Part shown: positions 1 through 211 of the stretch, one piece after another | How positions within the stretch are numbered: the stretch's first letter is position 1 | Layout: each line of letters starts with the position of its first letter | Assembly (NCBI GenBank): GCA_017858735.1 | Contig: JAFMBH010000004.1 | Coordinates: 1-64,000, forward strand | Reading direction: 5' to 3' | Origin: Bacteroidota bacterium | GTDB lineage: Bacteria > Bacteroidota > Bacteroidia > Chitinophagales > Saprospiraceae | Length of the DNA: 64,000 nucleotides | Notes under the pieces: model-generated | What the model was told of the DNA's origin: nothing | Seen by the model: the letters and a program-made list of their open reading frames with translations, nothing else | Database searches by the model: none | Made by a program: the position numbers and the translations under genes

Positions 1-211
1 GACAATTCTCCAACGCAGCTTTCTTCCAGCGAACTTTAATTTCCTCCAGATTATAAGAGGCATTGCGTTGAATGCTTGTGCCTTTCTCTATTTCATTACT
101 TTGTATTACCTGACCATTCAAGCTAATAGACAGACAGACAGACAGACAGACAGACAGACAGATAGATAGATAGATAGATAGATAGATAGATAGATATATA
201 GATTTTTTCAT
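1..211 (-). CDS. Partial CDS (N-terminus; continues off left edge), putative secreted protein with repeat-encoded signal peptide: MKKSIYLSIYLSIYLSICLSVCLSVCLSISLNGQVIQSNEIEKGTSIQRNASYNLEEIKVRWKKAALENC...
   Basis: Manual translation of the minus strand from ATG at 211-209. Open through position 1 with no stop (70 codons). MKK plus a long hydrophobic stretch, then a polar mature-like region. Not in the supplied track because it is truncated. Confidence 0.7.
   Translation of the reverse strand, partial: MKKSIYLSIYLSIYLSICLSVCLSVCLSISLNGQVIQSNEIEKGTSIQRNASYNLEEIKVRWKKAALENC
129..196. repeat. Tetranucleotide microsatellite (GACA)8(GATA)9 on the + strand; (TATC)9(TGTC)8 in the coding sense of the minus-strand ORF
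   Basis: Counted directly: 129-160 is 8 x GACA; 161-196 is 9 x GATA. Confidence 0.97.

Follow-up and report, generated by a model that had tools for sequence, protein, structure and literature searches.

The window, a stretch of 64,000 nucleotides from a Saprospiraceae bacterium (Bacteroidota), carries at its left end the 5' end of a FISUMP-family gene for a predicted secreted protein (1..211, minus strand, 70 codons), which is cut by the contig end and stands in the ON register. The reading frame starts with ATG AAA AAA TCT ATA (211-197, of which ATG AAA AAA occupies 211-203), runs through nine TATC units (195-160) and eight TGTC units (159-128), and stays open to about base 1-2, reading MKKSIYLSIYLSIYLSICLSVCLSVCLSISLNGQVIQSNEIEKGTSIQRNASYNLEEIKVRWKKAALENC. 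The initial annotation had described this start, the two-part tract and the open frame up to the window edge, and re-analysis gave the same reading. The tract (TATC)9(TGTC)8 (128..195, minus strand) is a perfect array of 17 units and 68 bp, and the period-4 array at 126-203 is the sole tetranucleotide array within the window. Since base 1 of the window coincides with the start of contig C41, one of 222 contigs in the draft genome, the open left end is an assembly break. The 70-aa stub stops short of the FISUMP domain and gave no domain match; full-length relatives of the gene carry PF09603/TIGR02145.

Both other frames stop just past the tract, at TAG (125-123) and TGA (120-118), positions that had been noted before and were confirmed. 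Simulation of unit numbers 13-20 placed the gene ON at 14, 17 and 20 and led to a stop at 13, 15, 16, 18 and 19, in agreement with the earlier claim that the gene is ON here and is turned OFF by a change of one unit, as stops followed at both 16 and 18. Addition of three units, or 12 bp, kept the frame and contributed one more YLSI tetrapeptide. TATC encodes YLSI and TGTC encodes CLSV, hydrophobic tetrapeptides that are the same in every frame, so the tract can serve as the predicted signal-peptide core, (YLSI)n(CLSV)n, in any register, and ON or OFF is thus decided by the downstream frame alone. The predicted signal peptide of the window gene consists of MKK, a stretch with a 12-residue hydropathy maximum of 2.45 and a conserved SLNGQ end, and is clearly longer than in tract-free homologues. 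This N-terminal pattern points to export of the window protein.

Upstream of the start codon, a candidate promoter (277..308, minus strand) is composed of TTTG (308-305), 20 nt and TATTTTTG (284-277). It is weakly suggested by a match of the window copy to TTG-N-TANNTTTG, which we take to be the Bacteroidota-type promoter consensus; TANNTTTG was present at most 160 bp from the start in six of nine copies, against 1.9 expected from shuffles. The segment between gene and promoter region and beyond (212..506, minus strand) also occurs at further FISUMP loci in the genus (G002:C125 and two genes of G001:C164). An interspersed repeat of ~60-160 bp lies at 515-680; each genome of the genus contains dozens of copies of it between genes. 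Farther into the window, at 35021-35195, two tandem copies with a 96-bp period are 98% alike and look like a tRNA gene.

The FISUMP gene family and its tracts

For the 43 residues past the tract, N-terminal matches were found in several further genes of the source genome and in genes of all six other congeneric genomes searched, and there was no match in 34 genomes of other genera of the order. Genes sharing this N-terminus encode FISUMP-domain (Fib_succ_major) proteins (PF09603, TIGR02145), and in full-length tract-bearing relatives the domain scored 116.5 bits compared with the curated cut-off of 33.9. The source genome contained 32 FISUMP matches, and the named relatives were Saprospiraceae/Haliscomenobacteraceae MAGs.

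The initial annotation had suggested looking for further tracts just past start codons. In a survey of TATC-type tracts, (TATC)n with n of at least 4, in seven genomes of the genus, eight of the nine tracts lay directly 3' of ATG in one secreted FISUMP subfamily, and six of the seven genomes had homologous genes with a tract at the 5' end. The ninth tract (G002:C92; L119 4556-4585) is intergenic, just downstream of a FISUMP gene and away from gene starts, and may be what is left of a copy that was lost. Across the order (398 genomes), ATG-plus-tract starts were confined to this genus. A chance microsatellite was ruled out by the perfect 68-bp two-part array, by the single tract position in one gene family and by these genus-restricted starts.

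Nine tract-type gene starts, including the short-tract copy G000:C15b, were read. Two of them (the window and G004:C389) were in register and seven were out, which fits random registers. The tract-free homologues, their registers classified by reading the output, were in register in 20 of 22 cases and out in 2 (Fisher p=0.0004 against the tract-type starts). Differences in tract length were compared between species or paralogues, with one genome per species and at loci other than that of the window, and here the repeat number was not invariant: in the strongest single case, G000:C15b and G005:C88, from two species, are identical at 2374 of 2406 positions (99%), and their tracts differ by 8 bp, exactly two units. 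The pair also forms a 2.4-kb FISUMP segment (L123 2886-3718 in G000:C15b; L122 in G005:C88) at 99% identity, whereas the neighbouring conserved genes are ~93% identical, which suggests a recent transfer of the cassette. The window gene shows one hallmark of a contingency locus, a coding tandem repeat with a unit not divisible by three that is ON in one register only, and a second, a repeat number differing between near-identical alleles, was found for a paralogue in two species.

The three-unit steps that keep the frame and the long signal peptide of the window gene would also be expected if the tract mainly adjusted, 12 bp at a time, how long or strong the signal peptide is, and with it export efficiency, with no on/off switch. 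Changes that are not multiples of three are common, however, as seen in the seven out-of-register copies, and the near-identical pair is two units apart, so that tuning as the main role is very unlikely.

Decay of the multigene family was another alternative weighed, in which the tract would be a microsatellite expanded in unneeded genes and the out-of-register copies would be pseudogenes. It would account for most tract-bearing copies being out of register, for the stop inside the variable repeat of one C15 copy (C15a) and for the degenerate homologue on C202. The OFF copies, however, retain intact frames of 240-420 codons, and their dN/dS outside the variable region (0.18-0.56) overlaps the 0.24 of open copies; moreover, the tracts occupy one position only, in one gene family, and the window copy is in register. 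Pseudogene decay is unlikely given the intact frames and these dN/dS values. One OFF copy, G001:C26, could still be expressed despite the register of its tract, as a further ATG lies upstream in the conserved frame. The recurrent tract, the mixed registers, the two-unit length difference and the intact, conserved FISUMP frames support the original proposal of a phase-variable secreted-protein gene; coding conservation of the downstream protein, on which that proposal hinged, was borne out in the relatives.

Retroelement cassettes and the chromosomal site

What makes the locus remarkable is the targeting of the window protein family by a diversity-generating retroelement (DGR), which the initial annotation had overlooked. 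In G004:C304, a tract-type FISUMP gene, Avd, a template repeat (TR) and a reverse transcriptase (RT, PF00078) follow each other in this order on one strand, and the contig edge falls within the tract of the FISUMP gene. The order FISUMP-Avd-TR-RT was found in G001:C104 too, but with a tract-free target, and TR and RT are present in G006:C71. Avd, in a sister species, matched PF22296 (E=3e-14, above the cut-off) and NF033474 (E=1e-18, below the curated cut-off). Apart from minor variation, all three template repeats read NNAFFWSATENDNNNAWNRNLNNNNGNVNRNNNNK..GASVRCLRD, with asparagine codons used in the way typically seen in templates of DGRs. GLPIGNLTSQ and YVDD, both features of DGR reverse transcriptases, are present in the RT.

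The variable repeats (VRs) at the 3' ends of the FISUMP genes mismatched the TR mainly at adenines. The VR of G001:C104 differed at 29 A and 1 other position (p=2e-15). For the tract-bearing genes, with comparisons to the TR of another species including ordinary divergence, the mismatches were 20 A and 3 other of 23 in G001:C26, at the window's chromosomal site in the sister (p=2e-8), 33 A and 6 other in G006:C20 (p=6e-14), 31 A and 8 other in G001:C164 (p=4e-11), 30 A and 11 other in G002:C125 (p=1e-9), and 23 A and 13 other in the tract-type gene of G004:C304 (p=1e-5). For G001:C26, G001:C164 and G006:C20, the TR used came from the respective genome itself. Many dispersed DGR targets occur in this one genus. 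The A-specific variation in OFF copies argues for targeted rewriting and not for decay of the family, for which the truncated RT at the window's own site (below) could be cited.

These data also bear on a further alternative, that the switch is real and the DGR link incidental, the tract-bearing copies being relatives of DGR targets in which rewriting has ceased. No template repeat was found in the source genome (a draft assembly), G002, G003 or G005, G000:C15b and G005:C88 have the same unchanged variable region, and the target in the complete G001:C104 cassette is free of the tract, all of which would be expected from such relatives. Against this, the three tract-bearing VRs compared with their own-genome TR are strongly A-specific, and in G004:C304 a complete cassette has the tract-type gene as its target in cis. 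An incidental link has a modest chance of being right, and DGR diversification of the switched genes is the reading that we prefer.

Two side observations concern the surroundings of these loci. Solo DGR-type RTs with a shortened N-terminus and no TR upstream occur in two species (L190 249-1445 and L116 2058-3248). A large ATPase/nuclease-like family (MALKNLPLGISTLSKLLENNCIYVDKTEYVYHL...), probably of DUF1703 type, recurs beside FISUMP and DGR loci (L010 2749-3430, L011 1-1156, L121 3-737, L194 1218-2774).

In the window, conserved gene A (875..2293, minus strand), which encodes 472 aa with a lipoprotein-like N-terminus, marks where the inserted FISUMP/DGR segment ends on the right. Gene A adjoins genes B and C, with no FISUMP gene, in G003, G005 and G006, which represent the empty site, and the order in G001:C26 is gene C, gene B, RT and tract-bearing FISUMP gene. 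A search of the other contigs of the draft genome for a near-identical copy of the window-gene junction gave none, and the second flank was then located via gene B. In the source genome, genes C and B lie on contig C100 and are followed, in the expected orientation, by the N-terminal portion of the RT seen in G001:C26; the copy here is truncated, with ~965 bp lost relative to G001. The end of C100 has sequence in common with the start of C164, a contig on which an RT of this type is intact. With gene A on C41 and gene B and the RT remnant on C100, gene order places the two contigs as the flanks of one DGR-type insertion, the remainder of which would lie in the assembly gap. The assembly lacks the part of the window gene that would encode the FISUMP domain and variable repeat, and the gene's 3' end is presumably itself a variable repeat. 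Because no TR was found in the assembly and the RT at the site is truncated, diversification in the source genome may have stopped or may depend on parts in trans.

The FISUMP protein of G004:C304 was modelled with a pLDDT of 84 and a pTM of 0.77. The best, weak neighbours in the fold search were the C-terminal domain of Legionella Lcl (PDB 8q4e), a Bdellovibrio C-terminal domain and BACOVA_04982 (PDB 4eps), followed by C-type lectins; no neighbour reached E<=0.001 (best 0.036), and a sequence search of solved structures gave no match. These weak fold neighbours agree with, and do not prove, a variable repeat that forms a C-type-lectin-like binding face, and the variable tip of the FISUMP proteins would presumably bind a ligand.

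Two routes to diversity and their precedents

The best reading of these results, which we consider probable, is a phase-variable signal peptide on a DGR-diversified, exported FISUMP binding protein. Slipped-strand mispairing in (TATC)n(TGTC)n would alter the unit number; one third of the registers would put the ATG in frame with the conserved sequence (ON, as with 17 units), and the remaining registers would run into a stop just past the tract (OFF). Avd, template repeat and reverse transcriptase would rewrite the adenine-matched positions in the 3' part of the FISUMP domain, where ligands are presumed to bind. The outcome would be an exported binding protein with a hypervariable tip, each gene copy of which is switched randomly between ON and OFF, and switching would be expected within a population. 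More tentatively, the two layers of variation could work together: the microsatellite would silence a DGR target, its tip would be rewritten in the unexpressed state, and slippage back into register would expose the new variant. With dispersed tract-bearing targets, each cell might then show its own chance selection from a repertoire under constant rewriting, an idea that we regard as open to about as much doubt as belief, with doubt slightly ahead.

Surface diversity can be generated by phase variation or, independently, by DGR hypermutation. The presence of both on one gene family of an environmental bacterium suggests joint selection for random expression and targeted mutation, perhaps caused by phages, predators, competitors or changing ligands rather than by host immunity. 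It also raises the testable question of whether DGR rewriting proceeds in translationally silent genes.

A tract across the hydrophobic core of a signal peptide in an environmental Bacteroidota had been called unusual in the initial annotation; repeats within a signal peptide as such have a classic precedent in Neisseria opa, in which CTCTT repeats lie in the leader-peptide coding region and the number of units sets the frame (PMC3960869). Both systems combine short leader-peptide repeats with a multigene family of exported proteins. In opa, however, the unit is a pentamer instead of a tetramer, the products are unrelated outer-membrane barrel proteins, and diversity arises by recombination, whereas here it would come from a retroelement, in a free-living Bacteroidota.

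On the retroelement side, most cellular DGR target clusters have a signal peptide or an N-terminal membrane segment (PMC8144416), and in Thiohalocapsa PB-PSB1 several DGR loci, some of them incomplete, are described with targets apparently rewritten in trans (PMC10907252). The genus resembles PB-PSB1 in its multiple, partly incomplete loci and apparent trans rewriting; the targets there are antigen-sensor conflict proteins, and the passages seen do not mention phase variation. Fib_succ_major (FISUMP) and DUF1566 proteins are already listed as DGR targets in human microbiomes, and PDB 4eps is a structure related to the targets in that study (PMC4159848). Those DGRs share Avd, TR, RT and a target 3' end holding the variable repeat with the present ones, which differ in the simple-sequence phase switch and the many dispersed targets. 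The open-access literature yielded no description of a simple-sequence switch controlling a DGR target, and each half, leader-repeat switching and DGR FISUMP targets, is known; the novelty therefore lies in their combination.
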